A DNA stretch of 64,000 nt from Aneurinibacillus sp. (lineage in GTDB: Bacteria > Bacillota > UBA5301 > DYFA01): contig DYFA01000016.1 of the NCBI GenBank assembly GCA_020725425.1, forward strand, positions 1 to 64,000, read 5' to 3'. Both the position numbers and the translations under genes were made by a program. Numbering within the stretch: position 1 is the first letter of the stretch; each line of letters begins with the position of its first letter. Shown here one piece after another: positions 25,471 to 33,755 of this stretch. Under the pieces are notes generated by a model. It was not told the origin of the DNA and ran no database searches. It saw nothing but the letters and a program-made list of their open reading frames with translations.

Positions 25471-25632
25471 ATGTCGAAAAAAGCGACACCGGTGAACGGT
25501 CAGGCCCTGGTGGAGTACGTGCTGGTGCTTGGCCTGATTTCGGCAGTGCTGGGGTTGCTCGGGCGGCTTTTGCGGACGGCAATTCTCATAGCCCAAGCCC
25601 GCTTCAGCGCCGGGGCGGCGCTCTTGCCCTAG
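25471..25632 (+). CDS. Flp-type pilin-like protein 1
   Basis: A 53-residue prepilin-like protein. A short basic leader (MSKKATPVNG) is followed by QALVEYVLVLGLISAVLG, the Gly-x-x-x-x-Glu-Tyr pattern of Flp pilins with glutamate at +5 and tyrosine at +6 after the cleavage glycine, then a single hydrophobic helix. GGGGAG lies six bases before the ATG. It is the first gene of the operon; compared with the next pilin it has a shorter polar tail. Confidence 0.75.
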   Translation: MSKKATPVNGQALVEYVLVLGLISAVLGLLGRLLRTAILIAQARFSAGAALLP

Positions 25633-25684
25633 CCCTGTTCAACTTTGGGGACGCCGCACTTTTGCACGGAAGGGGGGATTTGAC

Positions 25685-25852
25685 GTGAGGCAAGTTTGGC
25701 TGAGGTTGCGGAACGAGGAAGCCGGACAGAGCATGGCGGAGTACGGGCTGCTCACTGCCCTGATCGCAGTGGCATGCATCGTTTCCGTGCGAGCCTTGGG
25801 CGGAGCGATAACAACCAAGTTCACTAAGCTTGCCGCGGAGATTGTCAAGTAG
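25685..25852 (+). CDS. flp: Flp/Fap-type pilin 2 (probable major pilin)
   Basis: A 55-residue classical Flp prepilin. The leader MRQVWLRLRNEEAG ends in the cleavage glycine, followed by QSMAEYGLLTALIAVACIV, with the glutamate-tyrosine pair characteristic of type IVb pilins, and a C-terminal amphipathic part (FTKLAAEIVK). GGGGGG upstream of GTG 25685 provides a ribosome site. After peptidase cleavage it would form the pilus fibre. No prepilin peptidase gene is found nearby. Confidence 0.88.
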   Translation: MRQVWLRLRNEEAGQSMAEYGLLTALIAVACIVSVRALGGAITTKFTKLAAEIVK

Positions 25853-25897
25853 AACTCGTACTTCGACAACTCAAAAAATAAGGTACTGGCTGGTGAC

Positions 25898-25987
25898 GCC
25901 TGGCAGGGCAAACCGACAAGACAACCTGGCGGGGCGGCGTCCCCGAAAATATGCCTGCCTGGCAGAGTGCGGTAAAGGGGGATTACC
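25898..25987 (+). ncRNA. Candidate structured RNA before the first tadE gene
   Basis: In the 135-base gap after the second pilin gene, GCCTGGCAGGGC (25898-25909) can pair with GCCTGCCTGGC (25953-25963) with one mismatch and one bulged G. A hairpin C-GGGG/CCCC-G (25930-25934 with 25941-25945) lies inside. A final hairpin GGTAA/TTACC (25971-25975 with 25983-25987) holds the AGGGGGA ribosome site of the next gene in its loop. This may set expression of the minor genes relative to the pilins, or be a processing or stability element. Confidence 0.4.
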
Positions 25988-26332
25988 GTGGAAAGAGGTC
26001 AGAGTACGGTTGAAGTGGCAATCGCCTTCCCGGTGGCGGTCACCATCTTGTGGTGGACCATCGTCGCTCCTTTGGTCGGTGTGCGGGCCCTGGCCGCTCG
26101 AGTGGCGGCGGCGACCGGGGCGCGCCAGGCGGCGTTGGCGGATGGACCGGAGGCCGGACGGACCGGCCGTACCATTGAGAGGATGTGGAAGGGCCTCGGG
26201 GGCGCCGGTAGCGGGAAGAAGGTTGAGGTGTCGCTTTCGAACAGCTCAGTAGCGGTCAGTGCCCGGGAGGCACCCTTGGGGGCAGGAAGGATGAGCGACT
26301 TCCTGCTGTACGTGGGGCGGGAGAAAGACTGA
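25988..26332 (+). CDS. TadE-like minor pilin/pseudopilin
   Basis: A 114-residue protein with a TadE-type N-terminus: a short polar leader ERGQ, then STVEVAIAFPVAVTILWW, a hydrophobic helix with glutamate at position 5 as in type IVb pseudopilins. The rest is a small soluble domain. GTG 25988 follows the hairpin loop that contains GGGGG. Its stop overlaps the next start (TGATG). Likely a minor pilin or assembly factor of the Tad pilus. Confidence 0.7.
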   Translation: MERGQSTVEVAIAFPVAVTILWWTIVAPLVGVRALAARVAAATGARQAALADGPEAGRTGRTIERMWKGLGGAGSGKKVEVSLSNSSVAVSAREAPLGAGRMSDFLLYVGREKD

Positions 26333-27030
26333 TGGAGAGGTCGGCGGCGGGCGAGCGTGGACAGGTCGTGGTGGCGGCGGTTCTGGCGGTAGTTCTGGCC
26401 GGCCTCGCCTGGGAGGCGCTGGTTACCGCCTGGGCAGCCACCAGGGACCGCCTGGTGGTTCAGAACAGCTTGGACGCTGGGGTAACTACCGGAGCGGCTG
26501 TGTTGGCGGACGGCCTCAACACGCTGGCCATCATAAACCGGGCGTTGCTGGCATTAGGGATCACCGCCATGCTGGGAAGAGGGGAGTACGCCTACTGGGC
26601 CGCCCAACTGCAGCGGGCTCAGGACGAAGTGATCCGTCGCACGCCGGCTCTGGCCAAACAGGCGGCGTGGGGAACGGCGGTGGGGTTGGGCGCCCAGGGG
26701 GTCCGCTTCCCCCCCGGCGCCGGTGGGCAGTGGCCGAGTCTCATGGTGCGCCGGGTATACCTCCTTCCCTGGCTCTTGGGCTCCCAGTTCCCGCTCTGGA
26801 TCGCCGATGACCTGCACCCGGTCAGGGATCGGCGCTGGGGTAACCGGGTGGTGTACCTTGAAGGATGGAGGCTGAACCGTCGGGGAGCGGGCCAACTGCC
26901 GTTCCGCGCCAGGGCGGGAGCCGCGGCGTCCAGAAGAGGCGGGGGCCGAAGCAGTTGGCCCCTGCTCGCCACAGACTTCGACAGCCGGTTGATCCCCTTT
27001 GGGGGAGAAGAGGGGGCCGGTCACCGATGA
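26332..27030 (+). CDS. TadG/TadE-like Tad-associated protein
   Basis: A 232-residue protein starting with a prepilin-like segment (GERGQVVVAAVLAVVLAGLAWEALVTAW, of which the hydrophobic part is about residues 12-33). The following NSLDAGVTTGAAVLADGLNTLAIINR resembles the stretch after the helix in Tad-associated TadG-like proteins. The C-terminal half is basic and without clear features. The start overlaps the upstream stop, and its own stop overlaps the next ATG (ATGA), so the three tadE/G genes are tightly coupled. Confidence 0.62.
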   Translation: MERSAAGERGQVVVAAVLAVVLAGLAWEALVTAWAATRDRLVVQNSLDAGVTTGAAVLADGLNTLAIINRALLALGITAMLGRGEYAYWAAQLQRAQDEVIRRTPALAKQAAWGTAVGLGAQGVRFPPGAGGQWPSLMVRRVYLLPWLLGSQFPLWIADDLHPVRDRRWGNRVVYLEGWRLNRRGAGQLPFRARAGAAASRRGGGRSSWPLLATDFDSRLIPFGGEEGAGHR

Positions 27031-27434
27031 GTTGTCCGCAGGCAGTCAGCGGCAAACGTTCAGTCGGCACCTCTCCCAGCGGACAGGCCCTGATCGAATT
27101 GATCCTTGTCCTGCCCCTGCTCATCGCAACTGCGCTGGGGGGGCTGACCCTCTGCCGGCTGGCGGTGGGCCAGACCGAGGTGCGCCTTGCGGCAATTCTT
27201 GCCGCCGCGGAGCGAGATCCGGCTAGCACTGCCCGCGCTCACCTGGAACGCAACCGGGTAGTGCGGGCAGGACAGGCCGTGGTCAACGTGAGACACGCAG
27301 CCCAACTCCGCCTGATCACCGTCACTTGTCCCTTGTCTCCCGGCTGGTGGCCTGGAAAGGTCAAATCCCAGCTATACTTGACTGCAGTCGCCGGGCGCGG
27401 CCGGACGTTGCTTTGCACGAGACCAAGGAGGTGA
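27027..27434 (+). CDS. TadE-like protein
   Basis: A 135-residue protein with a 21-residue polar leader followed by SGQALIELILVLPLLIATALGG, a strong TadE signature (glycine, glutamate at position 5, hydrophobic helix with double proline-leucine). The soluble part is about 85 residues and contains two cysteines. ATG 27027 overlaps the previous stop. It is the third TadE/G-type gene in a row, as in many Tad loci with several minor pseudopilins. Confidence 0.72.
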   Translation: MSCPQAVSGKRSVGTSPSGQALIELILVLPLLIATALGGLTLCRLAVGQTEVRLAAILAAAERDPASTARAHLERNRVVRAGQAVVNVRHAAQLRLITVTCPLSPGWWPGKVKSQLYLTAVAGRGRTLLCTRPRR

Positions 27435-27438
27435 GGTC

Positions 27439-28221
27439 GTGAAAACCCATACTACCGTCATGGTCATGGCGCTGGTGACTTGCGCCCTTCTCTGGTGGAA
27501 GCTGAGCAGCCGGGCCAGCGCCCCCGCTCCGGTGCCGGAGGTTCCCCTGCCGTCGGGGTCGACCGTGATCAAGCGGCTGGAGTCGCTCGTCAACCTCCAA
27601 TGCACCCATATCACGATCGTCCGCACCACCCTGCGCCCGATGGAAGTCGATCGGTTCTACCGGGCCAGACTTGCGGCACTGGGGTGGCGGGAAGAGACCA
27701 GAGAGGCTCTCCCCGGTACGGACCGGCGTCCTTTACTGTTCCGCCGGGAGACGTGGGAGTGTACGACGTTCGCTTTTCCCGACCTGGAGCGGCAGACCAC
27801 CAATCTTCTGCTGCACTTGCGCTCGGCCGGTGCCGGACCGCGGCGGCGTCTGCTCAATCGGGGAGCGCTTGCCAGCCGGTTGAGCGGTTTCCCTCTGTTC
27901 CCGGGGGTCGGCGGCGCATTGCTGATTGAGGACGGAAGCTGCACCGGCCCGGCCACGCTTCTGTTCGAAACGGAGGCGCCGCTGACCAGGGTGGTGGAGT
28001 TCTACCGCCGCCACTTGAGTGGCGGCGGCCGGCCGTTCCCCGCCACGAGCGAGGAAGGCGACTGGGCATCCGGCACATTCCGGTTTCGCCAGTGGCACGT
28101 GGCGGTCAATCTGTGCCGACGCCCTGCCGGCGGCACCTCGGCTCTGGTCATCCTCAACCGGGTAGCGGAAGGCGCCCCGGGAGCGGAGGTGGAAGCGTGC
28201 TCCGGCGGCGCAACCTTCTGA
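27439..28221 (+). CDS. Unknown Tad-operon protein with an internal duplication
   Basis: A 260-residue protein with an N-terminal membrane anchor or signal (about residues 7-23). Two similar domains follow: residues ~35-110 (LPSGSTVIKRLESL...MEVDRFYRARLAALGW) and ~145-215 (FPLFPGVGGALLIED...TRVVEFYRRHLSGGG). Each has a Pro-x-Pro/Gly-rich strand, a beta region and an FYR..L helix, a pattern seen in small secreted domains of unknown function in Bacillota. AAGGAGGTGAG precedes GTG 27439. Position between tadE and cpaB suggests a pilus-assembly or surface role. No function is assigned. Confidence 0.65.
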   Translation: MKTHTTVMVMALVTCALLWWKLSSRASAPAPVPEVPLPSGSTVIKRLESLVNLQCTHITIVRTTLRPMEVDRFYRARLAALGWREETREALPGTDRRPLLFRRETWECTTFAFPDLERQTTNLLLHLRSAGAGPRRRLLNRGALASRLSGFPLFPGVGGALLIEDGSCTGPATLLFETEAPLTRVVEFYRRHLSGGGRPFPATSEEGDWASGTFRFRQWHVAVNLCRRPAGGTSALVILNRVAEGAPGAEVEACSGGATF

Positions 28222-28985
28222 TCGGTTCCCTTCTGGCGATTCTGGCGGGGACCTTCTCTTTCGGCTACTTGACACACGCCGAACGGTCCCTGGCCGCCAG
28301 GGAGGCCCGGGAGACGGTCGTTGTGGTACGGCAGAGGATACCTGCCCTCCGTCGTTTGGACCGTTCCTTGGTCCACCTTCAGGCGATTCCCAAAACAAAT
28401 ATTCTGCCCGGTGCCTATCGTTCTCTGGACGAGGTCGTGGGCCGGGTGACGACAGTCGCACTATGGCCCGGCGACCAGGTGATCGCAGGGCGAACGGTGA
28501 GCGCGGAGGAACCCGAGGCGTTGACGGCCCGCCTGAACCCTGGAGAACGGGGTTTGTCTGTACCCGTGGAGGCTGAAACCGCCAAGGCCGTTCACCCCGG
28601 AGCCTACGTGGACGTGGTGGCGATCGCTCCTTCCAGCGACGGGCTTTCCCAGGTGTCGCGCCTAGTGCCGGCGGTGAGAGTGCTGAAGGTCTGCGGGGAC
28701 GAGCAAGCCGCCGGGGGCCTCGACCCGTGGGTAATGCTCGCGGTTTCCCCGGTGCAAGCCCAGGCCCTGGCGTTAGCGGCGGAGACAGGGAAGCTCCGGC
28801 TGGTATTACGGGCCGCCGCGGAGCGGCCGGACCAGTCCGCACCGGCGGAGCCGGCGCTTCACCGGCCGAGTGCCCAGCCAATCGAGGTCGTCCGTCAGCC
28901 AAAGAAGTCAGCCAAAGCGGTGGAGGTGATCAAGGGTGTCGAGCGGGATCCGCTGGCCGGCGGACTGGCGCCGGAGTATCGCTGA
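28197..28985 (+). CDS. cpaB: CpaB/RcpC-like SAF-domain pilus assembly protein
   Basis: A 262-residue protein with an N-terminal anchor (about residues 5-24), a SAF domain (about 35-100, VVVVRQRIPALRRLDRSLV ... VTTVALWPGDQVIAGRTV) and the RcpC-like beta region (about 115-200, RGLSVPVEAETAKAVHPGAYVDVVA). CpaB proteins sit outside the membrane and are thought to link the secretin with the pilus. GTG 28197 is preferred with GGAGGTGG upstream and overlaps the preceding gene by 25 bases; the next gene overlaps its 3' end by 50 bases. Confidence 0.85.
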   Translation: MLRRRNLLIGSLLAILAGTFSFGYLTHAERSLAAREARETVVVVRQRIPALRRLDRSLVHLQAIPKTNILPGAYRSLDEVVGRVTTVALWPGDQVIAGRTVSAEEPEALTARLNPGERGLSVPVEAETAKAVHPGAYVDVVAIAPSSDGLSQVSRLVPAVRVLKVCGDEQAAGGLDPWVMLAVSPVQAQALALAAETGKLRLVLRAAAERPDQSAPAEPALHRPSAQPIEVVRQPKKSAKAVEVIKGVERDPLAGGLAPEYR

Positions 28986-30384
28986 CGCCTGCCTGCTGAC
29001 CCTGATTCTCGGGCTGTCGTTGTTTCTGGTCGCGGGAGGGGCGGCCAGAGGCGCCGAACCTCCTGAGGTGATCGTCGTGCGCACCGGAGAATCCCGGGTG
29101 ATCACCGTCCCGGAGGTCTCGCGGGTGGCGGTGGGACAGCCGGCAGTCGCCGACGTGCGGGTGATCTCGCCAGGAGAGATCCTGGTCAACGGCAAGAGCG
29201 AAGGTCAGACCACGCTTCTTCTTTGGCCCTCGTCAGGCCGGGTCATTGAGCAGCAGGTGCGCGTCCTGTGCCCCTCCCCGGTTCTATCAGAGCGGGACAT
29301 AGAGGACCTGGTGGCCGACGAGGGCATCCGGGTGCGCAGTGTAGGAGGTTACGTGGTCGTCGACGGCCGCCCGGCGGCAGAGGGACGGCTGAGGCTCGAG
29401 CGGCTGGCGGCCCTCCTTGGGTCGAAGCTGCTCGACCTTACCGGGTCAGTCGATGAGCGCGAGGAGGACTCCGGCACGCCGGTCTCCCGACCGCGCCAGC
29501 AGGACCTGGAGTGGGTGACCGCGCTGGTGCAGCGAAACAGCGGCGGGGGCGTGGTCTTGACCCGTCAGGCTGGGAGAATCGTGCTCGAAGGCCAGGTGCC
29601 GTCCGAAGCCGCTCGGCAAACGGCGATACGGCTGGCGGAAGCCTTTTTCCCCGGGCAGGTGGTGGATGCGCTGGCGGCAGTTGAGCCAAGCGGCCTGTTT
29701 TCAATCAAGGCCAGGCTGATCGAGGTTGACCGCCAGGCCTGCCGGGAGCTGGGGCTGGAGTGGCCGGCAGAGGCGGGGGTGGGCGAGCGGAGCCTGCCCG
29801 GCGGGATGCACCTTGAACCGCTGGCCAGGCTGGAACCGCTGCTCGTCAAGCTCAAGGCGCTCGAGGACTCAGGCCGGGCCAGGATTCTCGCCGAGCCGTC
29901 CATGACGGTGATGGACGGCGCAGCAGGATGCTTCCTGGCGGGTGGGCAGATCCCGGTGCCCCTGGAAGTCGACGGACAGGCTACTGTGGAGTGGAAGGAG
30001 TACGGCGTGCGGCTCGACGTGCGGCCGGCGCTGCTGCCGTCCGGAAGGATCCGCCTGACGGTCCGGCCCGAGGTCTCCACCCTGGACTGGGCGAACGGGG
30101 TGCGACTGGGCGCCGGAACCGTTCCGGCGCTGCGCAGCCGGTGGGCAGAAACGGCCGTGGAGCAAGAGAGCGGGGACACTTTGATTCTGGCGGGGCTCTC
30201 CCTGGCGGAGGAGACTGATCACGGCGGTCGTGTGCCCGCCCTGGCCAACGTCCCTCTGCTCGGTGGCCTGTTTCGCGCCGACCGGGCTGCCCGGAGGCAG
30301 ACCGAACTGACCATCCTTTTGACGACGACCCTGGTTTCGCCTTGTCCCACAGCCGGGGAGAAGCCTGAAGGTGGTGGAGAGTAG
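28936..30384 (+). CDS. cpaC: CpaC/RcpA-like secretin
   Basis: A 482-residue secretin-family protein. A signal-like helix (about residues 17-38) is followed by the pilus-type N-terminal domain (EVIVVRTGESRVITVPEVSRVAVGQP split over residues ~43-68, ISPGEILVNGKSEG), a BON-like stretch, and the secretin core (about 275-465, ARLIEVDRQACRELG, ILAEPSMTVMDG, EYGVRLDVRPALL, VPALANVPLLGGLF). GTG 28936 has GGAGGTGAT six bases before it. Secretins normally form outer-membrane pores, so this gene in a probable monoderm is notable. It might cross the wall or be an ancestral remnant. Confidence 0.88.
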   Translation: MSSGIRWPADWRRSIADACLLTLILGLSLFLVAGGAARGAEPPEVIVVRTGESRVITVPEVSRVAVGQPAVADVRVISPGEILVNGKSEGQTTLLLWPSSGRVIEQQVRVLCPSPVLSERDIEDLVADEGIRVRSVGGYVVVDGRPAAEGRLRLERLAALLGSKLLDLTGSVDEREEDSGTPVSRPRQQDLEWVTALVQRNSGGGVVLTRQAGRIVLEGQVPSEAARQTAIRLAEAFFPGQVVDALAAVEPSGLFSIKARLIEVDRQACRELGLEWPAEAGVGERSLPGGMHLEPLARLEPLLVKLKALEDSGRARILAEPSMTVMDGAAGCFLAGGQIPVPLEVDGQATVEWKEYGVRLDVRPALLPSGRIRLTVRPEVSTLDWANGVRLGAGTVPALRSRWAETAVEQESGDTLILAGLSLAEETDHGGRVPALANVPLLGGLFRADRAARRQTELTILLTTTLVSPCPTAGEKPEGGGE

Positions 30385-30385
30385 C

Positions 30386-32263
30386 GTGGTGAGAATGGTG
30401 GAGGACCGGGAACCGGGACGGGTGGTGGTCGTCTGGGGTGGCAAGGGAGGAGTAGGATGCACTCTTGTGGCGGCCGGCCTGGCGAGGCTGTGGCACCGCC
30501 AGGGGAGAGCGGTCGCGGCGGTTCAGGCGGGAGGGAGTGTCTGCGGTGCACTGGAGCTCCTTTTGGCGCGGACGGAGGTGCCGCTCCTCGCTCTGGAGGA
30601 GCCTTCCCGCGGCGGGGCACCCTCCCTGGAACAGTCGGTCGCCGCGGTAGGTCCCCAGGGAAGGGTGGTGGTGGACTGCGGTTCACGGGAATCCCCGCTC
30701 ATGCAACGGGTGATGTCGAGAGCGGACGTTGTAGCGGTCGTGGGGACGCCTGACCTCCTCGGCCTGCGCAGCCTCACCCGCGGTCGTCGGCGGGTACTGG
30801 CTCAGGGTTTGGAGGAGCGGCGCAGCGGATACGTGCTGAACCGGCTCGGAATGCCGGGAGGACTCGGCCTGGAGGAGGTCCAGGCCCTGCTGACCTCGGA
30901 GTGTTGGGGGATTCTGCCGGACGTACCAGAGGAAGTGGTGTCGCTGATCGCAGAAGGGGTCGCCGGTCCGGGCAGCGGGTCCTGGAGTGCCGCCCTTGAA
31001 GCGCTGGCGACCCGGATCGAACAGCTTCTGTCTACCCTGCCTCCGCTTCCTCGACCGGTGAACGCCAGCCGAACCCCTCCGCCAGCGCCGGTTCCCTTGC
31101 CTTGTCAGGCCAAGCAAGCGATCCTGCAGAAGTTGGTACGCCGGTTGGGAGAGTTCGACCGGTCCGGTGATCCGGCGGTCTTGCGGCGAAGGGTCACGGA
31201 GGAAGCCGCGGCGGTGGTGGAGGAAACGGTGGAGACGCGACGCCTCCCCCGGCGGGATGTGGACGCGATAATCCTCCAGCTGGTCGACGAGGTCCTGGGC
31301 TTGGGCGCCCTTGAAGACCTCATCCGGGATCCCGAGGTGACGGAGATCATGATCAATGGGCCGGCGCACGTGTACGTGGAGAAAGGGGGGCGGATTCAAC
31401 AGGTGCCGTGTCACTTTGCCTCCCCGGAGGACATCATCCGCTTGGTGGACAGAATCATCGGTCCGCTGGGACGGCGAATCGACGAGAGCAGCCCTATGGT
31501 GGACGCCCGCCTGCCTGACGGCTCCCGTCTCAACGCAGTGATTCCGCCGTTGGCGCTGGATGGCCCGCTTGTGACCATCCGCCGGTTCGGGGTGGCGGCC
31601 ATGACGATGGACGACCTGGTAGCGGCTGGAACCCTGGCCCCCGGTCTCGCCCGGCAACTGAAGCAGGCAGTGGTGGCGAAGAAAAACATCCTCCTCTCGG
31701 GAGGGACCGGGACGGGCAAGACGACGCTGTTGAACGCCCTTTCCGGCTTCATTCCGTCAACAGAGCGGATCATCACGATCGAGGACGCGGCCGAACTCCG
31801 GCTTCAGCAGCAGCACGTCGTGCGGCTGGAGGCCCGGCCCCCCAACGTGGAGGGGCTGGGCGCGGTCACGATTCGCGACCTCGTCCGGAACGCATTGCGG
31901 ATGAGGCCAGACCGCATCATCGTGGGCGAAGTGCGCGGGGCCGAAGCCCTTGACATGCTGCAGGCGATGAACACAGGGCACAGCGGGTCGATGGCGACGA
32001 TTCACGCCAATTCGGCGGCTGATGCCCTGTCCCGCCTCGAAACGATGACGCTCATGGCCAACGTCGCCTTGCCACTCAAGGTCGTCCGCGACCAGATCGC
32101 CGCCGCCGTCGACTTCGTCGTCCACCTCGAACGGCAACCGGACGGCAGTCGCCGGGTGACCGAAGTGGTACGGTTGAGCGGCACCTCTGCAGGGCGCTAT
32201 CAGACCCGGCGATGTTCCGGGGAAGAAGAGGAGGGCGCCGAGCCTGAGGTCGCGGAAGCTTGA
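30386..32263 (+). CDS. tadA: Fusion of CpaE/TadZ-like ATPase domain with TadA/CpaF secretion ATPase
   Basis: A 625-residue protein with two Tad functions in one chain. Residues ~1-215 form a MinD/ParA-like domain as in TadZ/CpaE. Its deviant Walker A is GGKGGVGCT, keeping the signature lysine but with cysteine in place of the P-loop lysine. A Pro-rich linker (~220-245) leads to a complete TadA/CpaF ATPase: [20 protein letters not shown], Walker [10 protein letters not shown] (~437), [25 protein letters not shown] and the [11 protein letters not shown] His box. TadA powers pilus assembly; TadZ localises the machine. GTG 30386 follows GGAG; GTG 30371 is an alternative. Confidence 0.9.
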
Positions 32264-32336
32264 GCGGCTTGCTTCGCTGCCGGAGCGGGCAAGGCGGCAC
32301 GCCCTGGCCAGAAAGGCAGAGGAGCAGCTTCCCGAA

Positions 32337-32846
32337 ATGATTCTCTCCCTGACCGGCGGCCTGCGGGCCGGGCTCAGCCTCAACCAGGCGCTGGCCCTGG
32401 CGGCGGCGGACACACCGCCGCCGCTGGGCCCGGAAGTACGGCGTTGCACGGAAGAGGTACGACTCGGGCTCTCCTGGGCCGAGGCCTTGGACAGCCTGCG
32501 GTGCCGCCTGCCCGGAGAAGGTCTGACTTTGCTGGTGTGGGCTCTGGCGGTCCACCGCCGGACGGGAGGGGATCTGCCTGCTCTGTGTGACCGGCTGCAT
32601 GATCTTTTGGGGGAGCGGCGGAGGCTGCGCGCCAAACTGGCCGCGGCGACTGCCCAGAGCCGGCTGAGCGCAGGAGTGGTGGCGGTGGTGCCCTTCTTCC
32701 TGGCTCTGACTCTCCGTCAGCTGGCGCCCGACTACCTGGCACCTCTCTTGCACACGCCGGCAGGCTGGGCTCTCTTGACCTGGGCCGGCCTTATGGACGC
32801 GGTGGGGGTAATGCTGATCTTGCGCTTGTCGACGCTGAAGTGGTGA
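32337..32846 (+). CDS. tadB: TadB-like inner-membrane platform protein, N-terminus short
   Basis: From the first conventional start, 169 residues with the T2SS F-type domain (SLTGGLRAGLSLNQALALAA; GLTLLVWALAVHRRTGGDLP) and two C-terminal membrane helices. The frame is open further upstream, and codons from about 32244 read [13 protein letters not shown]...RKAEEQLPE, which looks like the sequence that normally precedes this domain. AGGAGG at 32229-32234 lies nine bases before a CTG at 32244, so an unusual CTG start is possible. Either way the N-terminal membrane helices of typical TadB are missing. Confidence 0.7.
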   Translation: MILSLTGGLRAGLSLNQALALAAADTPPPLGPEVRRCTEEVRLGLSWAEALDSLRCRLPGEGLTLLVWALAVHRRTGGDLPALCDRLHDLLGERRRLRAKLAAATAQSRLSAGVVAVVPFFLALTLRQLAPDYLAPLLHTPAGWALLTWAGLMDAVGVMLILRLSTLKW

Positions 32847-32861
32847 GAGGAGGGGGGAGCG

Positions 32862-33755
32862 GTGGTCCCGACGGCGCTCAAGTGGCTGGCTGCCCTGGCC
32901 TGGGCCGCGACCTGCTTGGTGATAGTCGACCTGTTCCGCCCTCTGCGGCGAGATGAAGCGGTCTGGCGGGTCATCGAACCGGGAGGCTCGGTTGATGCTC
33001 ATGCCGTGCTCTCCCTCTGGTTACGCCGGTGGGGAGGCCGCGTTCGCCGGGTGACGCCGCAACCCCTCCTGCGTTGGATGGAGCGAACCTCCGCCCATCT
33101 TCCCGATTCTCTGGGTTGCGACGGGTGGTTCGGCCTGACGGTGGCGTTCGGCCTGGCGGGGGCGGTGTGGCTCCTCCCTTCGGGAGAGACCTGGCGCCTG
33201 ACGGCGGACGGTCTCTGTCGGGTCGTGGGGCGGATGCTCACCGGGTTCGCCCTGGGGAGCAGCGGCGCGTTGGCCTGGATGCACCTCCGGGCGACCGAGC
33301 GGCGCAGTCGGGTCGAGCGTGACCTGCCGGGGATGGTCGACCTGCTCCTCCTGGGGCTCGAGGGCGGGCTGAGTCTCAGCAACGCCCTCGGGGAGGCGGC
33401 GCGCCGCCTCGAGGGACCGCTCGGAGAGGAGCTAGCGGAAGTGGACCGGCAGGTGGCACTGGGTCTCCCCCGGGCTGAGGCGTTAAGAGCGATGGCCGCT
33501 CGCCTGGGAATCCGAGAGTTGGAGACCGTCGTCGCTCTGATCAATCAGGCCGAAAGTCTGGGTAGCGGCGTCACCAAAGCCGTGGGGGCTATTGCCAAGC
33601 GGTTGCGGACGAGCCGCGTGTTGACGGCGGAGCGCCGGGCGGGCGAGGCGCCGGTGAAGATGCTTTTCCCCCTGGTCTTCTGCCTTTTTCCCAGCGTGCT
33701 GGTTTTGCTGGTCGGCCCCTTGCTGATCAGCAGGGGCCGTGCCCTGAGCTGGTGA
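32862..33755 (+). CDS. tadC: TadC-like inner-membrane platform protein
   Basis: A 297-residue T2SS F-domain protein: membrane helices near residues 7-25, 88-105 and 122-145, the F domain (about 150-260, VERDLPGMVDLLLLGLEGGLSLSNALGEAA split at this length, then LINQAESLGSGV) and two C-terminal helices (KMLFPLVFCLFPSVLVLLVG). It pairs with TadB to form the platform on which TadA acts. GTG 32862 follows GAGGAGGGGGG. It ends the Tad operon. Confidence 0.87.
   Translation: MVPTALKWLAALAWAATCLVIVDLFRPLRRDEAVWRVIEPGGSVDAHAVLSLWLRRWGGRVRRVTPQPLLRWMERTSAHLPDSLGCDGWFGLTVAFGLAGAVWLLPSGETWRLTADGLCRVVGRMLTGFALGSSGALAWMHLRATERRSRVERDLPGMVDLLLLGLEGGLSLSNALGEAARRLEGPLGEELAEVDRQVALGLPRAEALRAMAARLGIRELETVVALINQAESLGSGVTKAVGAIAKRLRTSRVLTAERRAGEAPVKMLFPLVFCLFPSVLVLLVGPLLISRGRALSW

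Follow-up and report, generated by a model that had tools for sequence, protein, structure and literature searches.

The locus examined here raises the question of what a MinD/ParA-like domain does when it belongs to the same polypeptide as the motor ATPase of a Tad pilus. By the window we mean the whole stretch of DNA analysed, 64,000 nucleotides of contig DYFA01000016.1 from Aneurinibacillus sp. (assembly GCA_020725425.1). The gene of interest lies at 30386..32263 (+) and encodes a single chain of 625 amino acids in which a TadZ-type MinD domain precedes a TadA/CpaF ATPase. A first-pass annotation of the window had described one chain carrying a MinD/ParA-like domain of TadZ/CpaE type and a complete TadA, and this description is borne out by the open frame, Pfam, NCBIfam, a profile of split TadZ proteins (TadZ encoded separately from TadA) and AlphaFold models of the domain and the full chain.

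The frame runs from 30386 to its stop at 32263 with no interruption. Two start codons are candidates, GTG at 30371 and GTG at 30386; the second directly follows the stop codon of the secretin gene (30382-30384) and has a GGAG at a distance of 6 nt on its 5' side, which makes translation of the fusion within the Tad operon probable. Pfam assigns residues 14-179 to CbiA/MinD (E 9.6e-7) and residues 306-593 to T2SSE (E 1.3e-63), and the best NCBIfam model is TIGR03819, of the TadA family (E 9e-105), at a score of 350.6 bits that is slightly below the 373 cut-off. The N-terminal domain, of MinD/ParA fold, covers residues about 11-217 (30416..31036, +), and is followed by a proline-rich, disordered linker of ~22 residues (about 218-239; 31037..31102, +), for which AlphaFold predicts no secondary structure and pLDDT <50 at residues 226-233. 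The motor part (31103..32260, +) was delimited with a profile of CpaF from the PDB, invariant columns and the AlphaFold model, and consists of a three-helix NTD1 (residues 240-304), NTD2 and the C-terminal ATPase; its Walker A motif (GGTGTGKTT) and the GEVRG motif with the catalytic glutamate are intact and fall in invariant columns. The full-chain model has a pTM of 0.57, and how the MinD domain is placed against the motor is predicted with low confidence.

The N-terminal domain alone is predicted by AlphaFold to adopt a MinD fold (pLDDT 85.4, pTM 0.83), and Foldseek matches this model best to MinD (4v02, E 5e-11), as well as to FlhG and ParA-type ATPases. An HMM built from the MinD domains of 116 split TadZ proteins recognises it with 61.8 bits (E 8e-20), while the MinD model TIGR01968 gives no match to the fusion at E 1e-3; the true MinD of this genome, on contig C46, scores 391 bits with TIGR01968. 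The domain is therefore of the TadZ type, and since it is without a receiver domain we refer to it as a TadZ-type MinD domain rather than as a complete TadZ. Its covalent attachment to a complete TadA, as first proposed, fixes the two at a 1:1 stoichiometry. Elsewhere in the genome, contig C32 (58837-59556) contains a frame of 496 aa whose MinD-type domain scores 90 bits with the split-TadZ HMM; no TadA adjoins it within the stretch examined.

Variable N-terminal extensions (NTD0) occur in some TadA/CpaF proteins (PMC11300603), and the N-terminal domain could in principle be a plain extension of this kind, or the fusion an artefact of assembly. The MinD fold and the match to the split-TadZ HMM speak against the former; assembly error is ruled out by the identical architecture in many independent, unrelated genomes. 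We therefore give this alternative practically no weight.

Among 399 sampled Bacillota genomes, at least 14 of the 217 with a TadA match carry the fusion, most best matches in this phylum being adjacent tadZ and tadA genes with a stop codon between them. The fusion is found in 13/23 TadA-bearing genomes of the Omnitrophota (58 sampled) and as a full-length fused frame in 47/59 genomes of the Bdellovibrionota, 6 further genomes being partly covered, with single cases in the Acidobacteriota, Eremiobacterota and FCPU426. The architecture is thus established in several phyla and is not peculiar to the genome of the window, as this survey of domain architectures shows; the fusion is not unusual, and the initial statement that the two proteins are as a rule encoded apart is true of most Bacillota and fails for the Bdellovibrionota. 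Our literature search found no published description of a MinD-TadA fusion. In Bdellovibrio bacteriovorus, TadA (bd0111) is listed between TadB (bd0110) and RcpA (bd0112), and no TadZ is named (PMC5430801); the papers that we consulted on Bdellovibrio Tad loci give TadA without remarking on a fusion.

The fusion is part of a full Tad pilus cluster on the forward strand (25472-33755). Two Flp-type pilins were recognised by eye from the sequence, a second, Flp-like pilin at 25472..25633 (GQALVEYVLVLG) and the major pilin at 25686..25853 (GQSMAEYGLLTALIA). They are followed by a TadE-like minor pilin (25988..26332), identified by its N-terminal GQSTVEVAIAFPVAV motif, seen by eye, and an iterative profile match; by a TadG-like protein (26332..27030) with no Pfam match, assigned by synteny as one found in fused-type clusters; and by a further TadE-like minor pilin (26865..27434; Pfam TadE, E 2.6e-4, slightly below the cut-off), whose true start is probably further downstream. 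The next gene (27439..28221) encodes a protein of unknown function that synteny reveals to be common to several fused-type clusters and to clusters of the same class that lack the MinD domain (see below). CpaB/RcpC (28092..28985; TIGR03177, over the cut-off) and a CpaC/RcpA-type secretin (28936..30384; Pfam Secretin, E 6.9e-34) lie 5' of the fusion, the secretin directly so, and the inner-membrane platform proteins TadB (32337..32846; Pfam T2SSF, E 1.4e-21) and TadC (32862..33755; Pfam T2SSF, E 1.2e-12) lie 3' of it. The order CpaB, secretin, fusion, TadB is kept across fused clusters, with TadC next in most of them; none of the genes at 25472-33755 was recognised as encoding a prepilin peptidase of the TadV type. 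Omp85 (PF01103) is present in 7/7 genomes of the class; the lineage of the window thus belongs to the outer-membrane-bearing (diderm) Bacillota, in which a secretin makes sense. The same genome has a second, canonical Tad cluster on contig C41 (11647-13851), in which receiver-TadZ and TadA occupy separate frames of 443 and 470 aa, respectively.

What separates the fused proteins from split TadZ is the receiver domain, which is present in 111/116 split TadZ and 0/25 fused proteins (Fisher p 4e-23, uncorrected for shared ancestry); Pfam Response_reg was found in 8/8 split TadZ tested. Because the fused clusters share ancestry, this absence amounts to about three events rather than 25, and the correlation of fusion with loss of the receiver rests on these few independent events. 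In a quick tree of 81 clusters three changes suffice (in the Bacillota, the Bdellovibrionota and one Acidobacterium), with three long-branched actinobacterial rows set aside and the MinD-less clusters counted with the fused ones. A comparison of neighbourhoods revealed no separate receiver gene that consistently accompanies fused clusters and might take the place of the missing domain. Cryo-ET density from Caulobacter has been fitted with six CpaE dimers around the CpaF hexamer, with contacts attributed to the REC domains, and the dimers are proposed to touch one another through the receiver domain of CpaE (PMC13170226). The proposal of a motor tethered by the fusion to a positioning domain is weakened, since none of the fused proteins examined has a receiver domain. 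We also considered whether fusion is marked by loss of a tail that targets the membrane and set this aside, as the figures (79/116 split, 10/25 fused) mostly reflect amino-acid composition; the linker in the window contains no C-terminal amphipathic membrane helix of the TadZ/CpaE kind.

The Walker A motif of the N-terminal domain (30440..30466, +) reads GGKGGVGCT, confirming that the signature lysine is present and that a cysteine (residue 25, codon TGC, 30458-30460) stands in place of the P-loop lysine. It had been suggested that conservation of this cysteine across homologues would support a functional change, and the comparison points the other way. In an alignment of Walker A motifs from 23 fused proteins the P-loop position is lysine in 15, arginine in three, alanine and threonine in two each, and cysteine only in the protein of the window; split TadZ are equally variable (K86 R12 T7 A7 C3 S2 V1; non-lysine in 32/118), the three with cysteine being from Anaerolineae. 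About a quarter of split TadZ are without the P-loop lysine, the signature lysine being almost always present. A link between fusion and loss of the P-loop lysine was rejected (lysine in 15/23 fused and 86/118 split, p=0.46). Judged from these alignments, the cysteine has no significance in itself and belongs to a range of changes that this position tolerates. A distinct function, such as redox or metal sensing, might be argued from the cysteine shared with the three Anaerolineae, yet no fused relative has it and elsewhere the position is occupied by R, T, A, S or V, making such a function very improbable.

The signature lysine of MinD/ParA ATPases acts across the dimer. Its retention in the window would fit a dimerisation switch that still works with ATP, cysteine standing in for the P-loop lysine and the fusion coupling the state of the switch to the motor, as would the lysine at the P-loop in 15/23 fused relatives. 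The TadZ family is already known for its atypical Walker A motif, and such TadZ proteins are known to bind ATP and to hydrolyse little of it (PMC6668835; PMC13170226). Against this, the switch aspartate, present in 48/50 relatives, is glutamine in the window (D47Q), and two asparagines have been replaced, Asn31 (N31G; present in 46/49 relatives) and Asn189 (N189A). Alignment to relatives also reveals the lack of a loop of about 35 residues, while the signature lysine, the glycines, the Walker B aspartate and the NR motif are retained. We consider an ATP-driven switch in this protein unlikely. The claim that the domain may bind but not hydrolyse ATP is plausible, if generous: given K25C, D47Q, N31G, N189A and the missing loop, even binding is uncertain. 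With the switch residues gone (K25C, D47Q, N31G), the domain of the window is most likely a passive scaffold.

A further alternative is that the N-terminal domain is a decaying leftover, TadZ being no longer needed in a second Tad system and its residues, including the P-loop lysine, having drifted. This possibility gains force from three genomes of the same class, all of family f4, G003 (contig C52), G005 (contig C23) and G006 (contig C193), which have window-type Tad clusters in which TadA (387-429 aa) carries no MinD domain and no tadZ is nearby. Each of them has another Tad cluster too, and in G003 and G005 this one includes normal receiver-TadZ and TadA; in G006 the contig ends short. In a tree of concatenated TadA, TadB and TadC from 31 clusters, a branch with 100/98 support separates the split clusters from the fused clusters and the three MinD-less ones, and the latter are sister to the cluster of the window (96/86), on a long branch that makes their exact place less sure. 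Synteny supports this placement in 2/3 MinD-less clusters, which have the TadG-like gene and the gene corresponding to that at 27439 in the same order; the contig of the third is too short to cover these genes. The simplest reading is that the MinD domain was lost in the sister group; the trees are unrooted, so gain and loss are not separable with certainty. Since these sister clusters exist, the MinD domain may be dispensable, and the loss of several near-invariant residues and of about 35 residues from the domain of the window is likewise what decay would produce. On the other hand, the domain is still confidently predicted to fold, its frame contains no stop codon, the motif residues listed above are all kept, and the length of the f4 branch leaves the sister relationship less sure. 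Decay is a serious possibility that we nevertheless think somewhat unlikely.

The reading that we favour, by a modest degree, is that the window encodes the motor of a secretin-bearing second Tad pilus, whose subunits carry a flexibly linked, receiver-less MinD domain as a docking module that here serves as a passive scaffold. In the standard machine, by analogy with Caulobacter, TadZ/CpaE dimers would surround the TadA/CpaF hexamer and contact each other through their receiver domains. With the MinD domain covalently attached to the motor, recruitment by the receiver would become unnecessary, and the receiver domain could be lost. A fused hexamer would then bear six MinD domains, perhaps as three dimers, making up a collar or docking module integral to the motor; in the window, the residues lost from the domain suggest a scaffold rather than an ATP-driven switch. 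We infer the docking role from the fitted density and the AlphaFold3 interactions reported for one other species. Whether fused MinD-TadA proteins constitute a distinct Tad machine, with a MinD collar of its own and no receiver ring, and with the collar in the window independent of nucleotide and nearing loss, can be proposed only tentatively; we hold it to be possible, on the doubtful side of even.

The analysis adds three points: how widely the fusion occurs, that fused proteins consistently lack a receiver domain, and that there is a graded series within one class, from receiver-TadZ with separate TadA, through fused receiver-less MinD-TadA, to TadA alone. Such a natural series bears on the unsettled role of TadZ/CpaE. 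The fused motor has a 6:6 ratio, as opposed to the twelve CpaE around six CpaF of the Caulobacter model, and therefore offers a direct test of whether a tethered MinD domain still requires a receiver domain and an ATP switch. Most Bdellovibrionota appear to have the fusion, and this phylum includes a predator that can be cultivated in the laboratory, B. bacteriovorus HD100.

Compared with known systems, the N-terminal domain resembles TadZ/CpaE in its MinD fold, its deviant Walker A with signature lysine, its match to the split-TadZ HMM and the position of its coding region beside that of TadA, between the secretin and TadB. It differs in being joined to TadA, without a receiver domain or a free C-terminus, and in the change of the P-loop lysine to cysteine and the loss of the switch aspartate and other residues. 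With the fusions of the Bdellovibrionota, Omnitrophota and other phyla it shares domain order, absence of the receiver and gene neighbours, although most of those keep the P-loop lysine. The motor part is like TadA/CpaF in its NTD1, NTD2, C-terminal ATPase domain and catalytic motifs, and in its profile match to solved CpaF, and is unlike them in having a MinD-fold domain where the disordered NTD0 would be. Four TadA proteins in our set have long N-terminal extensions that look FHA-like by eye, as in KilF of Myxococcus, and the TadA tree places them near some of the fused proteins. KilF itself offers a parallel to the fusion, as there too a separate cytoplasmic domain is fused N-terminally to a Tad motor (PMC8460266), an FHA domain in KilF and a MinD domain in the protein of the window.
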